A stretch of DNA of 49,923 nt, from the NCBI GenBank assembly GCA_913052445.1, contig CAJXDP010000007.1, positions 1 to 49,923 of the forward strand, read 5' to 3'. The notes under the pieces are model-generated. The model did no database searches, had not been told where the DNA came from, and saw only the letters and a list, made by a program, of their open reading frames with translations. Below are positions 24,275 to 32,121 of this stretch, in pieces. Positions within the stretch are counted from its first letter, which is position 1, and every line of letters starts with the position of its first letter. Both the position numbers and the translations under genes were made by a program. The DNA comes from an uncultured Formosa sp. (GTDB taxonomy: Bacteria > Bacteroidota > Bacteroidia > Flavobacteriales > Flavobacteriaceae).

Positions 24275-26973
24275 TAGAAGAAAATGGTGATATAGCTGCT
24301 AATGAGTTACAAGATAATCAGGAAACGATTACCAGAGTTACAGGGATGTTTAAAGATTGGTTTTTAGATTACGCATCTTATGTAATTTTAGAACGTGCAG
24401 TTCCTGCAATCGAAGATGGTTTTAAGCCTGTGCAGCGTAGAATCTTACATTCTATGAAAGATCTTGACGATGGACGTTATAATAAGGTGGCCAATATTGT
24501 AGGGCACACCATGCAGTATCACCCGCACGGAGATGCCAGTATCGCTGATGCGATGGTTCAAATAGGACAAAAAGATTTATTAATTGATGCCCAGGGAAAC
24601 TGGGGGAATGTTCTTACCGGAGATCGTGCTGCGGCTTCTAGATATATAGAAGCACGACTGTCTAAATTTGCTTTAGAAGTCGTTTTTAATCCAAAGATTA
24701 CTCAGTGGCAAGCCTCTTACGACGGACGTCGTAAGGAGCCAATTAACCTTCCAGTCATGTTTCCTTTGTTATTAGCTCAAGGGGCCGAAGGGATTGCTGT
24801 AGGGCTTTCTACAAAGGTATTGCCTCATAATTTTATTGAACTAATTGATGCCTCTGTAAAGCATCTACAAGGCAAACGATTTACTATATTTCCTGACTTT
24901 GCAACTGGAGGAATTGCAGATTTTACAAATTACAATGAAGGTCTACGTGGGGGTAAAGTACGCTGTAGAGCAAAAATATCTCAACTCAATAAAAATACAT
25001 TAGTAATTTCTGAAGTTCCATTTGGAACGACGACTTCTTCCCTAATCGATTCTGTTCTTAAAGCAAATGAGAAGGGTAAAATTCGGATAAAAAAAATTGA
25101 AGACAACACGGCTGCAGAAGTTGAAATACTAGTTCATCTTCCAGCTGGAATATCGCCAGACAAAACAATAGATGCATTGTTTGCTTTCACATCTTGTGAA
25201 AACTCAATCTCTCCATTAGGATGTGTGATAGAAGATAATAAGCCTTTGTTTGTTGGTGTTACAGAAATGTTGAGACGTTCTACGGACCACACAGTCGAGT
25301 TGCTAAAACAGGAATTAGAAATAAAGCTAGGAGAATTTGAAGAACAATGGCATTTTGCTTCTTTAGAGCGGATATTTATAGAAAATAGAATCTATCGTGA
25401 TATTGAAGAAGAAGAAACTTGGCCAGGAGTAATTAGTGCTATAGATAGGGGGCTGAAGCAACATATACAGCATCTAAAACGTTCGGTTACTGAAGAAGAT
25501 ATTACACGCTTAACAGAGATAAGAATTAAAAGAATTTCTAAGTTTGACATTGAAAAGGCACAACAAAAAATTAATTTTTTAGAAGATCAAATTGCTGAAA
25601 CAAAAGGATATTTGGCTAATCTTATTAACTATGCTATTGATTACTTTAAACGCTTAAAAACAAATTACGGAAAAGGTAAAGAACGTAAAACTGAAATCAG
25701 AATCTTTGATGATGTCGATGCTACGAAAGTAATTATCAGAAACACTAAGCTATTCGTCAATAAAGAAGAAGGGTTTGTAGGAACCGGTTTAAAGCGAGAT
25801 GAATACGTATGTGACTGTAGTGATATTGACGATATTATTGTTTTTACCAATGAAGGAAAAATGATGGTTACTAAAGTTGGAAGTAAAACTTTTGTTGGTA
25901 AGCATATAATTCATGTTGCTGTCTTTAAGAAAAAAGACTCTCGTACGATTTATAATATGATTTATAAAGACGGAAAAGGAGGCGCTTCCTACATAAAACG
26001 ATTTGCAGTCACAAGTGTGACTCGAGACAGAGAGTACGACTTAACAAATGGGAAATCAGCGTCAAACACTCTATATTTCTCTGCCAATCCAAATGGAGAA
26101 GGTGAAGTGGTGACGGTTTTATTGCGTCAAGTAGGGAATATTAAAAAGCTTAAATGGGACATTGATTTTGCAGGTATTAATATTAAAGGCCGAGTTTCCA
26201 AAGGAAATATTGTTACTAAAAACGCGATCAAGCGAATTGATCTCAAGGAGAAAGGGGTGAGTACGCTTAAGCCTAGAAAAATATGGTTTGATGATACCAT
26301 CCAGCGTTTAAACGTTGATGGTCGTGGAGATTTAGTGGGTGAATTTAGAGGTGAAGATCGCATTCTGATTATAACACAGTCAGGCATAATTAAAACTATT
26401 ATACCCGAAATTACAGTTCACTTTGATGATGATATGATTGTACTTGAAAAATGGGTTCCTAAAAAACCTATTTCAGTAATTTACTTTGATGGCGGAAAGC
26501 AAAAGCACTACGTTAAGCGTTTTATAATCGAAAACGAAAGTAGGGAAGAGTGCTTTATTTCAGAGCATCCTTCAAGTTTCCTGGAAATTGTGTCCACTGA
26601 TTGGCGTCCTGTTGCTAAATTGTCATTCGCTAAAGACAGGGGGAAAGACAGGCGCGATGATCAAGAAATAGATATTGAACAGTTTATAAGCTTAAAAGGG
26701 ATTTCTGCGCTAGGCAATCAATTAACCAAGTTGAAATTGAAACAGATAGATCTTATGGAGTCTTTGCATTATGACGCACCAATTCAATTGGCTGCTGATG
26801 AGATTGAAGTTGTTGAGGAGGAAGTTTTGGTGCAGTCGGAAAAGAAAACTGGAGTTATAGAGGAAGTTGAAACTATACAAGAAACGACTCCAGTCAACAA
26901 ATTAGAGAAAGCTCCAAAAACAAGGGATTTAGGACTTGATGTTAACGATGAGGGTCAGATTACATTGTTTTAA
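24271..26973 (+). CDS. parC: DNA topoisomerase IV subunit A, with C-terminal clamp-motif-like tail
   Basis: The DNA-cleaving subunit of topoisomerase IV. The 900-residue protein has the winged-helix domain with the active-site tyrosine in [10 protein letters not shown] (about residue 130). The [28 protein letters not shown] segments, a coiled-coil region (about 370-450) and beta-pinwheel-like C-terminal repeats (about 490-840) follow. Residues about 845-895 are an acidic, low-complexity linker and the last five residues are QITLF. That ending resembles the sliding-clamp binding pentapeptide (QL[SD]LF type). Translation is coupled to parE by a 4-base overlap. The stop codon interlocks with that of the convergent lipoprotein gene. 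Confidence 0.94.
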
Positions 26974-27341
26974 TTAATTCTTGTCGCTTCTCCTTGACGT
27001 TTATAGGTGTCTCCAACGTATCCATATTCAAAGCTGTAACTGTCTTCGGAAGTTGTAAGGATTTTTAAATGAATGTCCTTTTTTTCGGCACGATTTTTTG
27101 GATTGATTGTTTTAAAGACTACTTCACAATTGTTTATCCAACGAACGTACGTTGAATCCACAGTTCCTTCAAACGATTCAACCTGAAGCAAAGAGTCACG
27201 AGAAAACGTAGACTTGTAAATTATGCCATCTATCGTTATCTTGCTTTTATAGGTCCCAGTTTTAAAATCGTTACAGTTTCGTTCTATTTGGTAACAACTA
27301 ACAAATAAGGATGGAATTAACAGCAAGGCTATATACTTCAT
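26970..27341 (-). CDS. Small putative lipoprotein next to topoisomerase IV
   Basis: The 123-residue protein starts MKYIALLLIPSLFVSC, a lipoprotein signal with C16 as the expected lipidated residue, so it should sit in the periplasm or outer membrane. I start it at 27341; an in-frame ATG 11 codons earlier would put polar residues before the signal sequence. The mature part is about 105 residues with beta-strand-like segments (TGTYKSKITIDG, NCEVVFKTINPK, YSFEYGYVGDTYKRQGEAT). It is a conserved neighbour of parC in flavobacteria as far as I recall, and can be mislabelled DNA topoisomerase IV in databases; nothing in it is topoisomerase-like. Confidence 0.7.
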   Translation of the reverse strand: MKYIALLLIPSLFVSCYQIERNCNDFKTGTYKSKITIDGIIYKSTFSRDSLLQVESFEGTVDSTYVRWINNCEVVFKTINPKNRAEKKDIHLKILTTSEDSYSFEYGYVGDTYKRQGEATRIN

Positions 27342-27382
27342 GTTACAAAAATACAAAACAGATTTGTTAATCATACTTGTTT

Positions 27383-27772: not shown

Positions 27773-27774
27773 TG

Positions 27775-27788
27775 TTTACAAATGTAAA
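27775..27788. promoter_or_regulatory. Operator-like palindrome 1, TTTACAAATGTAAA, over the regulator's -7 element
   Basis: Perfect half-sites TTTACA and TGTAAA are separated by AA, centred at 27781.5. The site begins 3 bases upstream of the regulator's ATG. On the minus strand it contains the -7 element TACATTTG (27786-27779), so a protein bound here would block both promoter melting and the start-codon region. Confidence 0.7.
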
Positions 27789-27807
27789 AGAGTTTAAGAG
27801 TTACAAA
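27779..27807 (-). promoter_or_regulatory. Promoter of the XRE regulator gene, probably leaderless
   Basis: On the minus strand TTTG (27807-27804) and TACATTTG (27786-27779) are 17 bases apart. Only 6 bases separate the -7 box from the ATG (27772), so transcription would start at or next to the start codon. Both elements lie inside palindromes 1 and 2. Confidence 0.55.
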
Positions 27808-27813
27808 TGTAAA
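27800..27813. promoter_or_regulatory. Operator-like palindrome 2, GTTACAAATGTAAA
   Basis: Same motif as palindrome 1 with one mismatch in the outermost base; flanked as GTTACAAATGTAAAC. Its centre is 25 bases from that of palindrome 1, close to two and a half helical turns. It covers the -33 element of the regulator's promoter. Confidence 0.6.
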
Positions 27814-28009
27814 CTTTAATCCATAATTTGCAAAAAAGAAGTTTAAAATATTAATTAATATCCAAAAAAAAGGTTTAGTTAAATTATTTTAAATTACTGA
27901 TTGTTAGTTTTTAGTGAATTATATAATGATATATTAAAATTTTTAATTTGACTTGTTAAAATGATGATATATTTATGCTAAACTTGTAGATAATTATAAT
28001 TTATTATTG

Positions 28010-28023
28010 TTTACAATTGTAAA
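28010..28023. promoter_or_regulatory. Operator-like palindrome 3, TTTACAATTGTAAA
   Basis: A perfect 14-base palindrome centred at 28016.5 on the peptidase side of the spacer. It contains TTG (28017-28019), the best candidate for the -33 element of the peptidase promoter, but no -7 consensus. Its symmetry is therefore not explained by a promoter box. Confidence 0.7.
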
Positions 28024-28043
28024 ACCAATAATGTTTACATTTG
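28017..28043 (+). promoter_or_regulatory. Promoter of the M14 peptidase gene
   Basis: TTG at 28017-28019 and TACATTTG at 28036-28043 are 16 bases apart, slightly short but otherwise matching the Bacteroidota type. The expected leader is about 12 bases to the ATG at 28062. Both elements lie inside palindromes 3 and 4. Confidence 0.5.
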
Positions 28044-28047
28044 TATT
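28034..28047. promoter_or_regulatory. Operator-like palindrome 4, TTTACATTTGTATT
   Basis: The left half-site TTTACA is perfect and the right half has TGTATT instead of TGTAAA. Its centre is 24 bases from palindrome 3, and it overlaps the -7 element of the peptidase promoter, mirroring the arrangement at the regulator end. Confidence 0.55.
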
Positions 28048-28061
28048 ATATCAGTAAACCT

Positions 28062-29228
28062 ATGTTTAATTCCACTTTTTTTTTATCTCAATACAAGTCT
28101 TTAAAAGCACAGTCATTAAGGTCTAGGCATATATCAAATTTAGATATTGAACCACTGATGGAGTTATTTTCTGATAAATTTGATGTTAGTATTTTAGGAA
28201 ATTCAGAAGCAGGACTTCCTATTCGAGCAGTTAAAATAGGCTCAGGTTCGAAACGGATTTTGATTTGGTCTCAAATGCATGGCAATGAAAGCACTACTAC
28301 AAAGGCACTCTTTGATCTTTTTAATTACTTAGAACTAGACGATTTTAAATCATTCTTAAGCACTTTTTCATTTTTTATCATACCAATACTAAATCCTGAT
28401 GGCGCACTTGCTTACACACGTTTAAATCACCATCAAGTAGACTTAAACAGAGATGCTATAAATAAGTCTCAAATTGAAAGTAAAGTTTTAAGTTCTGCTT
28501 TTGATAATTTTAAGCCTCATTATTGTTTTAATTTACATGGTCAGCGTACTATATTTAGTGTTGGAAGAACTAATAAATCTTCAGTAATGAGCTTCTTATC
28601 TCCTTCTGAAAATGTAGAACGTGATGTTACAAATACCCGTAAAAAGTCGATGTCAATTATCAATTCTATAAATCGTGTACTGCAAATATATTTACCGAAT
28701 CAAATTGGACGTTACGAAGATGATTTTAACCCAAACTGTGTTGGAGACCAATTCCAAACTCAAGGAGTTCCAACAGTACTTTTTGAAGCAGGACACTATC
28801 CTAACGATTACAACAGAGAAGAAACTCGTAAATATACTGCGCTATCTCTTTTTACAGCTCTTGATTATATTTCAAACAATGAAATCAACGGACATGACTT
28901 TATTGATTATTTTCAAATTCCAGAAAATAAGAGATTATTTAACGATGTTATTGTTAGAAATGCAATAATAGATATTAGTAATCCAACTCACTTTTGTGAT
29001 ATAGGCATTCAGAATACAGAAGTTTTGAATAAAAGCGGGATTATATTTAAACCCACGATCAGTATTATTGGAGATTTATCAGAAAAACATGGGCATTTTG
29101 AAATTGACGCGAATTATAAGCTTGTATCCCATCCAGATTTCCCTAAATTATCGGAAAACTACGAAATCGATTTCTTATTAGTAGATTCTTCTAAAATACA
29201 CCTATTTGATAAAAATAATTTAACATAA
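28062..29228 (+). CDS. M14-family zinc carboxypeptidase-like protein, no signal peptide
   Basis: The 388-residue protein has the M14 metallocarboxypeptidase core. The zinc ligands are H73 and E76 in QMHGNES and H159 in NLHGQR. NPDG (111-114) and LNHHQVDLNRD complete the substrate pocket, and the catalytic glutamate is E242 in VLFEAGHYPNDY. The core ends near residue 265; about 120 further residues are not assigned. There is no signal peptide, unlike most secreted carboxypeptidases, so a cytosolic peptidase or amidase acting on small peptides or amide conjugates is likely. I use the ATG at 28062; a TTG frame start at 28041 lies inside the operator. It is controlled from the shared spacer with the XRE gene. 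Confidence 0.85.
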   Translation: MFNSTFFLSQYKSLKAQSLRSRHISNLDIEPLMELFSDKFDVSILGNSEAGLPIRAVKIGSGSKRILIWSQMHGNESTTTKALFDLFNYLELDDFKSFLSTFSFFIIPILNPDGALAYTRLNHHQVDLNRDAINKSQIESKVLSSAFDNFKPHYCFNLHGQRTIFSVGRTNKSSVMSFLSPSENVERDVTNTRKKSMSIINSINRVLQIYLPNQIGRYEDDFNPNCVGDQFQTQGVPTVLFEAGHYPNDYNREETRKYTALSLFTALDYISNNEINGHDFIDYFQIPENKRLFNDVIVRNAIIDISNPTHFCDIGIQNTEVLNKSGIIFKPTISIIGDLSEKHGHFEIDANYKLVSHPDFPKLSENYEIDFLLVDSSKIHLFDKNNLT

Positions 29229-29296: not shown

Positions 29297-29776
29297 GTGG
29301 CAAAAGTCAAACTAGACGACATTGATCATCAAATCCTAGATATGCTGATTGATAATACCAGAATTCCATTTACAGATATTGCAAAAAAATTATTAATCTC
29401 AGCCGGAACAGTTCATGTGAGAGTTAAAAAAATGGAAGATGCAAAGATAATTAAGGGTTCTTCATTAACTATTGATTATCAAAAACTTGGATATTCATTT
29501 ATAGCCTATGTTGGAGTTTTTTTACAAAACACTTCTCAAACTAAATTTGTTTTAGAGCGTATTTACCAAATACCTCATGTAACTGTTGCACACATTACCA
29601 CAGGAAAATTTAACATCTTTTGTAAAATTCGTGCAAAAAGTACAACACATGCAAAAGAAATTATCTTCAAATTAGATGACATTGAAGGAGTTTACCGTAC
29701 TGAGACTATGATTTCTTTAGAAGAAAGTATTAATGATAAGAAACGCTTAATGCATTCTATATTTAATGATATGTAA
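29297..29776 (+). CDS. Lrp/AsnC family transcriptional regulator (second copy)
   Basis: The 159-residue protein starts with GTG and reads MAKVKLDDIDHQILDMLIDN. A winged helix-turn-helix (about 6-62) is followed by a RAM domain with VAHITTGKFNIFCKIRA and a C-terminal ETMISLEESINDKKRLMHSIF tail. It is distinct from the regulator at 7964 and belongs to a well-conserved flavobacterial Lrp type. Targets are not shown by the sequence. It follows the peptidase gene and converges with aroB (5 bases between stops); proline dehydrogenase and alanine dehydrogenase genes are close by and would be sensible amino acid targets. Confidence 0.92.
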   Translation: MAKVKLDDIDHQILDMLIDNTRIPFTDIAKKLLISAGTVHVRVKKMEDAKIIKGSSLTIDYQKLGYSFIAYVGVFLQNTSQTKFVLERIYQIPHVTVAHITTGKFNIFCKIRAKSTTHAKEIIFKLDDIEGVYRTETMISLEESINDKKRLMHSIFNDM

Positions 29777-29781
29777 TTTTT

Positions 29782-30855
29782 TTATTGTTTTGAGGCATAA
29801 TAGTCAAATGCTTCAAATATCACATCATTATCAACAATCATATCTACTTTACATTTTCCAATAGATTCAATTAGAGAATATTTAACTTCTCCGTGTGAAT
29901 TCTTTTTATCATACTTCAAAAGTTCAATTATTAATTTTTTGTCCTTTGTATCAAACTCAACACATCCATACATTTTTGTAAATACTTTTTTGATTTTTAA
30001 TAGTTCTTTATTAGTTAATCCGCAATATTTAGTAGACAAGTAAGCTTCAATTACCATTCCAGCCGCGATTGCTTCGCCGTGAAGTAATGTTTTTTTTGTT
30101 TTATTTTCAAGACAATATGATTCAATGGCATGTCCTATAGTATGTCCGAAATTTAATTGCTTACGCTCGCCTAATTCATTTGGATCTCTAGTCACTACTT
30201 CATTTTTTATAATAATGGATTCGTGAATTAATGCTCCTAAGCCACTTAACTTTAAATGTGATAAACCATCCAGGCGGTTCCAATAATTAGCATCTTTTAT
30301 TAAGCCATGCTTCAGCATTTCTGCCATCCCTGACCTCATTTCATCTATTGATAATGTTTTTAAAAATGAGGTGTCAATTAGTACCATTTCAGAGAAATTA
30401 ATAACACCTACTTGATTTTTAAGACTTCCTAGATCTACTCCTGTTTTTCCTCCCACTGAAGCATCAACCATGGCAAGTAGGCTTGTAGGCACGTTGATAA
30501 AGCTAATCCCACGTTTAAAAGCGGATGCTACAAAACCCCCTAAGTCGGTAACTACGCCTCCTCCAAGATTTATTAACAATGATTTACGATCGGCTTCTAA
30601 CTCCGTAAGAGTATGCCATACTTGTGTACAGGTATCTATTGTTTTATTAAGTTCACCCGCTTCCATTTCGATGATTTCAAATTCTGAGAAATAACTAATA
30701 TTTGATAAGAATTTAGGAAGACAATAATTGTGAGTATTAGAATCTACTAAAATGAATATTTTACTAAAATTAGAGTGTTCTAAATATGAATCAAGCTCTT
30801 CATAACAGTGTTCATTAAAGTGAATTGAGTAGGCCTCAGATTCTATAGATTTCAT
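29782..30855 (-). CDS. aroB: 3-dehydroquinate synthase
   Basis: The NAD- and metal-dependent enzyme makes 3-dehydroquinate from DAHP, step two of the shikimate pathway. The 357-residue protein shows the NAD-binding GGGVVTDLGGFVASAFKRGI segment (about 98-117), NVPTSLLAMVDASVGGKTGVD in two parts with the catalytic lysine, and metal ligands in the NFGHTIGHAIE segment (about 236-246) and in LLHGEAIAAGM. It is a single gene, divergent from proline dehydrogenase with 99 bases between the starts. No other aromatic biosynthesis genes are here. Confidence 0.96.
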   Translation of the reverse strand: MKSIESEAYSIHFNEHCYEELDSYLEHSNFSKIFILVDSNTHNYCLPKFLSNISYFSEFEIIEMEAGELNKTIDTCTQVWHTLTELEADRKSLLINLGGGVVTDLGGFVASAFKRGISFINVPTSLLAMVDASVGGKTGVDLGSLKNQVGVINFSEMVLIDTSFLKTLSIDEMRSGMAEMLKHGLIKDANYWNRLDGLSHLKLSGLGALIHESIIIKNEVVTRDPNELGERKQLNFGHTIGHAIESYCLENKTKKTLLHGEAIAAGMVIEAYLSTKYCGLTNKELLKIKKVFTKMYGCVEFDTKDKKLIIELLKYDKKNSHGEVKYSLIESIGKCKVDMIVDNDVIFEAFDYYASKQ

Positions 30856-30898
30856 AGTTATTTATATCATAGATTACAAGTGTGAAATTAAGTAGAAA

Positions 30899-30933
30899 TT
30901 TGCAAATAATGTAATTAGTATTAAATATATTTG
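30899..30933 (+). promoter_or_regulatory. Promoter of the proline dehydrogenase gene
   Basis: TTTG at 30899-30902 and TATATTTG at 30926-30933 are 23 bases apart, at the long end for Bacteroidota promoters. The leader would be about 15 bases before the ATG at 30955. Confidence 0.5.
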
Positions 30934-30954
30934 TTTCGCTTTTAATTCATATTT

Positions 30955-32121
30955 ATGAGTATTGATTTTAATAATACTAAAGTTGCATTTCACTTAAAGT
31001 CGGATTCCGAACTAGAGCGTGCCTATTTTTTGTTTAAAATGATTTCTATAGAACCTCTAGTTAAAATAGGGGCCACCGCTACTAATTTTGCTTTAAAGGC
31101 GCATCTTCCTATTGAGGGTTTAATTAGATCTACTGTGTTCGATCACTTTTGTGGAGGAGTTAGTGAATTTGATTGTATTCCTAAAATTGCTGAAATGCAT
31201 AAGAGTGGGGTCTATAGTGTTCTTGATTACTCTGTAGAAGGGAAAGAAGATGAGATTCAATTTGACTTGGCTCTTAAAAAAACATTAGAATTAATTTTAT
31301 TCTCTAAAAGTAATGACTCCATGCCGATTGCGGTTTTTAAACCTACCGGTTTCGGTCGTTCTGAAATTTATCAAAAAATAAGTGAAAAAACAAAGTTAAC
31401 TCCTTCTGAGTTTGAAGAATGGTTACGAATCAAGCAACGTTTTAATTTGGTTTGTGCTTCAGGAAAGTTAAATAATATTAAAATCCTTATTGATGCTGAA
31501 GAAAGTTGGATTCAAGAGTCTGTTGATGATTTGATTTTAGAAATGATGCAACAATATAATAAAGAATCTGTTATTGTATATAATACGCTTCAAACTTATC
31601 GTTCGGATCGTCTAGACTATTTAAAGCAAATTCATTTAACTTCTAAAAAGTTAAATTTCAAGCTAGGTTTCAAAGTGGTTCGAGGAGCTTACATGGAAAA
31701 AGAACGTTTAAGGGCTTCTGAGTTAGGATATAAATCTCCTATTTGTGAAACGAAGTACATTACGGACACCCTGTTCAATGATACACTAATATTTATCTTA
31801 GATAACCTTAATCAAATTCACCCTTTTATCGGGACTCACAATGAGGAAAGTACGACTTTGGCAATTCATTTAATGGCACAAGCTAAAATCACTAATAACG
31901 ATCCAAGGGTTTGGTTTGGACAACTTTACGGCATGAGTGACCATATAAGCTATAACTTAGCAGATAAAGGCTATAATGTTGCTAAATACGTGCCTTTTGG
32001 ACCAGTCAAGGATGTCATACCTTACTTAATAAGGCGAGCTGAAGAGAATACTTCAGTAGCTGGACAAACTTCAAGAGAACTTTCGCTAATTAAAAAAGAA
32101 AGAAAACGTCGAAAGTTCTAA
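30955..32121 (+). CDS. Proline dehydrogenase
   Basis: The FAD enzyme oxidises proline to pyrroline-5-carboxylate. The 388-residue protein is a stand-alone PRODH barrel. FKVVRGAYMEKERLRASELGY (arginine and tyrosine contacts) lies near residue 240, FIGTHNEES near 285, VWFGQLYGMSDHIS near 320, and the substrate arginines in YVPFGPVKDVIPYLIRRAEEN near 345-362. The following P5C dehydrogenase domain of PutA is absent, and no separate P5C dehydrogenase gene is in the window. The TAA stop interlocks with the stop of the opposite gene by 4 bases. Confidence 0.95.
   Translation: MSIDFNNTKVAFHLKSDSELERAYFLFKMISIEPLVKIGATATNFALKAHLPIEGLIRSTVFDHFCGGVSEFDCIPKIAEMHKSGVYSVLDYSVEGKEDEIQFDLALKKTLELILFSKSNDSMPIAVFKPTGFGRSEIYQKISEKTKLTPSEFEEWLRIKQRFNLVCASGKLNNIKILIDAEESWIQESVDDLILEMMQQYNKESVIVYNTLQTYRSDRLDYLKQIHLTSKKLNFKLGFKVVRGAYMEKERLRASELGYKSPICETKYITDTLFNDTLIFILDNLNQIHPFIGTHNEESTTLAIHLMAQAKITNNDPRVWFGQLYGMSDHISYNLADKGYNVAKYVPFGPVKDVIPYLIRRAEENTSVAGQTSRELSLIKKERKRRKF

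Follow-up and report, generated by a model that had tools for sequence, protein, structure and literature searches.

Phased operator clusters between divergent XRE regulator and M14 carboxypeptidase genes suggest a looped autoregulatory circuit in Flavobacteriaceae

A short spacer separates divergent genes for an XRE-type regulator and an M14-family carboxypeptidase within a 49,923-nucleotide stretch of DNA from an uncultured Formosa sp. (contig CAJXDP010000007.1), referred to here as the window. Taken together, comparison of this spacer with its counterparts in relatives makes it probable that the XRE protein is a local autorepressor with operators on both promoters, acting through a helically phased DNA loop that involves an AT-rich element (E) and is released by a signal. 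The operator sites, their placement on the -7 boxes, their dependence on XRE, their phasing and the element itself are documented by sequence and by comparison among relatives, whereas binding, repression, looping, contact through a hairpin of the regulator, the signal and any protein at E are predictions.

Results

Palindromic operators in the window and its relatives

The spacer between the two genes covers 27773-28061 (289 bp). A preliminary description of the window had reported four palindromes in it, and all four were recovered at the same positions, with 0, 1, 0 and 2 mismatches and with centre spacings of 25 bp at the XRE end and 24 bp at the M14 end (Table 1); the gap between the proximal site and the XRE ATG is 2 bases (27773-27774) and not 3 as had been given. 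At up to one mismatch the window holds four matches against 0.79 expected, a number reached in 0 of 100 shuffles. Three of these lie in the spacer, and the fourth (36234) is asymmetric. At up to three mismatches, 112 matches were found versus 96.5 expected, which is weakly above chance (4 of 100 shuffles got there), and the weak copy at 28034 is therefore supported by where it lies and by being conserved in relatives.

Table 1 Features of the XRE/M14 locus in the window.
Feature	Position	Strand	Basis and remarks
134-aa protein downstream of XRE	26970..27374	-	ORF
XRE regulator, 129 aa	27383..27772	-	ORF; HTH + linker + beta-hairpin
Operator X1	27775-27788	no strand	0 mismatches; 2 bp upstream of XRE start codon
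Operator X2	27800-27813	no strand	1 mismatch; carries XRE -7 box
Presumed XRE -7 box TACATTTG	27804..27811	-	sequence; TAnnTTTG at X2 in relatives
Presumed XRE -33 box TTTG	27831..27834	-	sequence; 19 bp from -7 box
Element E, 44-bp AT-rich block	27860..27903	-	profile; IHF-like core TCARNNNNTTA at 27890-27900
Operator B	28010-28023	no strand	0 mismatches; 24 bp upstream of A; overlaps presumed M14 -33 region
Operator A	28034-28047	no strand	2 mismatches; carries M14 -7 box
Presumed M14 -7 box TACATTTG	28036..28043	+	sequence; TAnnTTTG at A in relatives
M14-family zinc carboxypeptidase	28062..29228	+	Pfam PF00246

The genome-wide motif search proposed in the preliminary description was run on the assembly to which the window belongs (1.73 Mb, 81% complete). 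It returned three perfect copies, two of them in the XRE/M14 spacer and the third inside a reading frame that resembles, by eye, a Xer-type recombinase. With one mismatch there were 32 matches versus 25 in a reversed control, and this class is therefore mostly chance outside the spacer. One single-mismatch copy (C6:5068-5081 of the same genome, equivalent to L032 1069-1082) directly precedes a small gene whose product looks secreted, and is possibly a -7 box alone. Across 40 genomes, the 16-mer GTTTACANNTGTAAAC with at most one mismatch gave 94 forward matches versus 47 in the reversed control. This excess of about one match per genome could be the XRE/M14 locus itself, and a small regulon beyond that locus may exist.

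At E<=0.001 the XRE protein had matches in 52 of 60 relatives, some of them weak and not orthologs. An XRE alignment used as query hit 369 of 397 genomes of the window's family (E<=1e-15) and, in a sample of the order, 71 of 119 genomes (E<=1e-10). A scan of named genomes yielded at least 583 relatives, the best 80 of which carry the titles of Flavobacteriaceae genera or of relatives. From the 369 matching family genomes, 130 loci (30 + 100) were taken, some overlapping the earlier set of relatives. Removal of 27 duplicates and of 13 loci without a detected M14 gene (five of which have <400 bp of upstream DNA) from the 268 loci examined left 228 distinct loci, nearly all from Flavobacteriaceae, in which M14 is divergent from XRE; in 17 of these the spacer is <255 or >330 bp.

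Orthologous spacers had been put forward as a check on the palindromes, and the sites proved to be present across these 228 loci, with 2-8 sites per locus (mean 4.6; sites >=6 bits). In the first 101 loci, 444 sites of >=7 bits were observed, as compared with a mean of 2.7 in 50 base shuffles and a mean of 7.4 (maximum 13) in 20 dinucleotide shuffles. Reversed spacers of the same loci gave 138 matches, a count that is not near zero; 129 of them come from the flanks of called sites (within 14 bp), with 9 elsewhere. These loci also served to train the profiles for the sites and for E, so that the site and E counts are not independent of them.

We name the sites A, B and C at the peptidase end and X2 and X1 at the regulator end. 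The A-B pair, sought at 23-25 bp, was found in 179 of 228 loci and is spaced by exactly 24 bp in 177. A C site at 34 or 35 bp from B was seen in 105 cases, and the window has no C above the cut-off. Of the 228 loci, 187 have an X1 whose centre coincides with the XRE start codon, 21, the window's genus included, have it ~10 bp upstream, and 19 lack it; X2 was called in 177 loci (commonest position -34.5) and is missing in 51. Where X1 is centred on the ATG it overlaps the codons ATG-ATA/GTA-AAC (Met-Ile/Val-Asn), the protein beginning with MIN or MVN in 178 of 187 loci. Even so, 150 of these 187 loci, which were picked by having a called site, show an exact TTTACA as the non-coding half of X1. 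At the XRE end, a spacing of 25 bp is typical of the window's genus and one of about 35 bp is found in most others. The near mirror symmetry (25/24 bp) described earlier is thus typical of the window's genus, the usual spacings being 24 bp at the M14 end and ~35 bp at the XRE end.

In the six loci of family f8 (L262-L266 and L269), XRE and operators were found and M14 was not detected nearby; the partner gene is therefore not fixed. These loci have one operator at the XRE start codon and a second 160-204 bp upstream. In L262 and L264, the divergent neighbour encodes a protein of 90 aa whose C-terminus is hydrophobic, and downstream of XRE lies a gene that looks like pyrD.

The distance between operator clusters is helically phased

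The X2-B distance was measurable in 152 of 228 loci; the other 76, which include arrays with 21-22 bp spacing, lack a peptidase-side pair at 23-25 bp or a called X2. Distances were 191 bp (1 locus), 201-204 bp (11), 210-215 bp (85), 219 bp (1), 222-225 bp (45), 232-235 bp (8) and 259 bp (1), with the window at 210 bp. Hence 149 of the 152 distances fall in four clusters one helical turn apart, and those of 219 and 259 bp are out of phase. The best period was 10.7 (R 0.85) across the 152 loci and 11.1 in the first 70 loci.

On a tree of 140 loci (a quick tree built without a mixture model, 12 of the 152 loci being omitted for short proteins), the turn class of the X2-B distance changes at least 29 times. 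Among 70 independent pairs of relatives, the two distances differ by 0-2 bp in 54 pairs, by 8-12 bp in 13, and by 20, 24 and 35 bp once each, with differences of 3-7 bp in 0 of 70. The phase of the 16 large differences was reached in a fraction of 0.0003 of 20,000 uniform random draws. In the same 70 pairs, differences of 3, 5 and 7 do occur in whole spacer length (8 of 70), indicating that the constraint acts between the operators and not between the genes. As in gal-type loops, there are operators at both ends and the distance between them is helically phased (149 of 152). This phasing makes a DNA loop between the operator clusters likely, in agreement with the looping that the preliminary description had raised as a possibility.

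An AT-rich element between the clusters

Element E, which the preliminary description does not mention, lies between B and X2. Its profile was trained on the 152 measurable loci, and in 146 of these it outscores 95% of shuffled spacers. Its score tops every shuffled one in 210 of the 228 loci that have XRE and in 0 of the 11 that lack it; in other families, E was found in 5 of 17 XRE loci above 11 bits. In the 146 loci, the B-E distance is 104.5-106.5 in 12, 114.5-117.5 in 83 and 125.5-127.5 in 45, and the E-X2 distance is 94.5-98.5 in 136 and 106.5-108.5 in 8. Both shift in steps of ~11 bp, with E phased with both ends. The C-X2 midpoint falls within 1.5 bp of the centre of the E core in 52 of 86 loci and the B-X1 midpoint in 72 of 136, most of the remaining midpoints lying ~5 bp off; the core centre was picked after the element had been seen.

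The IHF consensus is given as WATCARNNNNTTR (PMC9820253), which the E core matches except for the A before TCAR (T in 62%). The genome that contains the window encodes two HU/IHF-family proteins. The conserved right half of E is not known as a feature of IHF sites. A strict pattern for E gave 42 matches versus 37 in the control among 31 genomes, but this pattern is insensitive, recognising only the locus of G018 among the genomes' own loci; on this weak evidence, E is not visibly enriched elsewhere in genomes. Another promoter at E was considered and rejected, as no TAnnTTTG was seen by eye on either strand. We regard E as a likely bend site.

The phasing might instead have been imposed by a second regulator that binds E and contacts XRE at each end, with no contact from end to end. 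Although this would suit both the ~11 bp steps on either side of E and the way in which E accompanies XRE, we find no candidate regulator gene linked to the locus, the E core fits the IHF consensus WATCARNNNNTTR (PMC9820253), and the midpoints near the core are as expected of a bend at the apex of a loop, albeit with a centre chosen post hoc. We consider this reading possible but distinctly less probable than the loop. Slightly less probable again is local repression at each end without any loop, the cluster distance being phased for another reason. One site on the -7 box with a second next to it, as seen at each promoter, would be enough for repression alone; local repression nevertheless leaves unexplained why a distance of 200-235 bp changes by whole turns, and why a phased, conserved E lies in between. 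We therefore favour a loop between the two clusters.

Operators coincide with promoters and depend on XRE

The Bacteroidetes -7 box has the consensus TAnnTTTG (PMC7366714, PMC2483708). On the gene's own strand, this motif is contained in A in 173 of 179 loci (peptidase) and in X2 in 174 of 177 (regulator), and is rarer in B (39 of 179), C (8 of 109) and X1 (8 of 209). The XRE promoter of the window reads TTTG-N19-TACATTTG on the minus strand (27834-27831, 27811-27804), although in relatives a TTG precedes the -7 box of X2 by 19 or 20 bp in a minority of loci (53 of 177). On the M14 side, 107 of 179 loci have a TTG within B that precedes the -7 box by 16 bp. The two sites at each end had been described as covering the -33 and -7 elements. 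This applies at the M14 end; at the XRE end it does not, because the -7 box sits in the distal site, X2, and the proximal site, X1, abuts the start codon. The presence of palindromes on both -7 boxes makes it likely that XRE represses itself and controls the peptidase, as had been suggested.

Loci without XRE provide a natural deletion. The comparison covered 20 of the 28 family genomes without an XRE match at E<=1e-15, 13 of which have M14; 11 of these loci were analysed, the other two M14 genes being at contig ends. In nine of the 11, the stretch that starts 700 bp upstream of M14 and runs 100 bp into the gene contains no site of >=6 bits; of the other two, L317 retains two possible sites and L321 a single one at a distance of 670 bp. 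Within one genus, G346 with XRE has three sites and E, and G148 without XRE has neither. The XRE-bearing locus L332 has one site only and no E above the cut-off. By eye, 7 of the 11 loci without XRE have a gene similar to that of the 134-aa protein next to M14, and 6 keep a gene that we take to be of TerC type, which argues that XRE was lost from a preserved neighbourhood. In L316-L320, which are without XRE, the order M14, 119-137-aa protein, TerC-type membrane protein is kept (by eye).

Since the sites occur with XRE and are mostly absent without it, the palindromes appear tied to the XRE protein, and these comparisons support their assignment to the XRE gene. That the palindromes are promoter sequence only, TTTACATTTGTAAA containing TAnnTTTG and being symmetric by chance, is very improbable: the -7 box is indeed part of A and X2, and the single-mismatch copy just upstream of another gene may be promoter only, but B, C and X1 are kept although mostly without the box, in line with the earlier argument that promoter sequence is insufficient, and 9 of the 11 loci without XRE no longer have the sites, though M14 still needs a promoter.

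The regulator, the peptidase and their neighbours

The regulator is, by domain, a member of the XRE / HTH_3 transcription regulators (Pfam HTH_3, E 2.8e-09, 37.3 bits against a cut-off of 23). An AlphaFold2 model of one chain (mean pLDDT 72, pTM 0.49; silent on tetramers) places the HTH helices within residues 4-68, followed by a low-confidence linker (76-106) and a beta-hairpin (112-126). In an alignment of 29 orthologs, R33, S34, I36-H38 and L40-L48 are invariant and the linker before the beta-hairpin is variable. The best Foldseek matches to the model were C.BclI, SinR, 434 repressor and Cro (E 4e-3 to 4e-2), with none at E 0.001 or better, and sequence searches of solved structures, by profile for XRE, gave no match for either the XRE or the M14 protein. 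We recognised no ligand or self-cleavage domain in XRE.

The M14 protein matches PF00246 with E 2.3e-11 (44.3 bits against a cut-off of 21.6). Its residues H73, E76, H159 and E242 are invariant in 15 orthologs; we take H73, E76 and H159 to be the zinc ligands and E242 the catalytic Glu, so that the HxxE + H ligand set and catalytic Glu of the M14 family are present in the window protein. No signal peptide was seen on it by eye. The M14 gene is followed in the window (29297-32121) by genes for an AsnC/Lrp-type regulator, a 3-dehydroquinate synthase and a proline dehydrogenase. A second, longer M14 paralogue (frames of 469-523 aa, 33-38% identical to the window M14) lies away from the XRE/M14 locus in G018, G065, G072, G090, G104, G148, G189, G191, G193, G223, G309 and G319.

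Discussion

The loop that we favour would work as follows. XRE would act as a local autorepressor whose dimers bind the GTTTACANNTGTAAAC palindromes, with one site on each divergent -7 box (X2 for the regulator, A for the peptidase) and auxiliary sites at B, and often C, at the peptidase end and at X1 on or beside the regulator start codon. Dimers at the two ends would touch, perhaps via the tethered C-terminal beta-hairpin, and this contact would close a DNA loop of ~20 helical turns, shutting both promoters together. The AT-rich E would sit within the loop, in phase with either end, and probably helps the DNA to bend, possibly as the binding site of a protein of the HU/IHF type. A signal would then release the loop, so that the cytosolic M14 carboxypeptidase and the regulator are induced together. 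More tentatively, and with somewhat less than even confidence, we propose a loop kept throughout the Flavobacteriaceae that the small XRE protein closes through its tethered beta-hairpin, and in which an architectural protein occupies a conserved element at the apex, halfway between the operator pairs.

Several features are familiar from known systems. In the gal repressosome of E. coli, GalR and HU form a loop between the operators OE and OI. As there, operator pairs bracket promoters, are helically phased and have a candidate site for a bending protein in between; unlike gal (~113 bp), the present arrangement has divergent genes, ~200-235 bp between operators, a self-controlling XRE-type regulator and 4-6 operators. 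With the XRE repressors of the lambda, 434 and SinR type it shares the HTH fold and operators on divergent promoters, including the regulator's own, but it differs from them in the low-confidence linker, the conserved beta-hairpin and the absence of a recognised ligand or self-cleavage domain. Lac repressor loops are formed by one tetramer on the operators of one promoter, whereas here operator clusters lie on two promoters. In both cases repression depends, here by prediction, on helical phase. For LacR loops in vivo, helical repeats of 11.08 and 11.60 bp have been fitted (PMC1762422), which the period of 10.7-11.1 resembles.

We found no paper on the XRE/M14 system in a literature search that covered few subscription papers. 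To our knowledge, few repression loops have been documented in Bacteroidota. We judge the arrangement, as predicted from these comparisons, to be a widespread new variant of loop-type autoregulation. In effect, evolution has run the classic phasing experiment, the operator distance jumping by a turn many times and avoiding half turns, so that phasing can be read straight from natural variation at ~150 loci. The XRE/M14 loci could thereby serve to test loop mechanics in vivo, and they draw attention to a peptidase that, in a large bacterial family, most of the sampled members probably keep tightly controlled.
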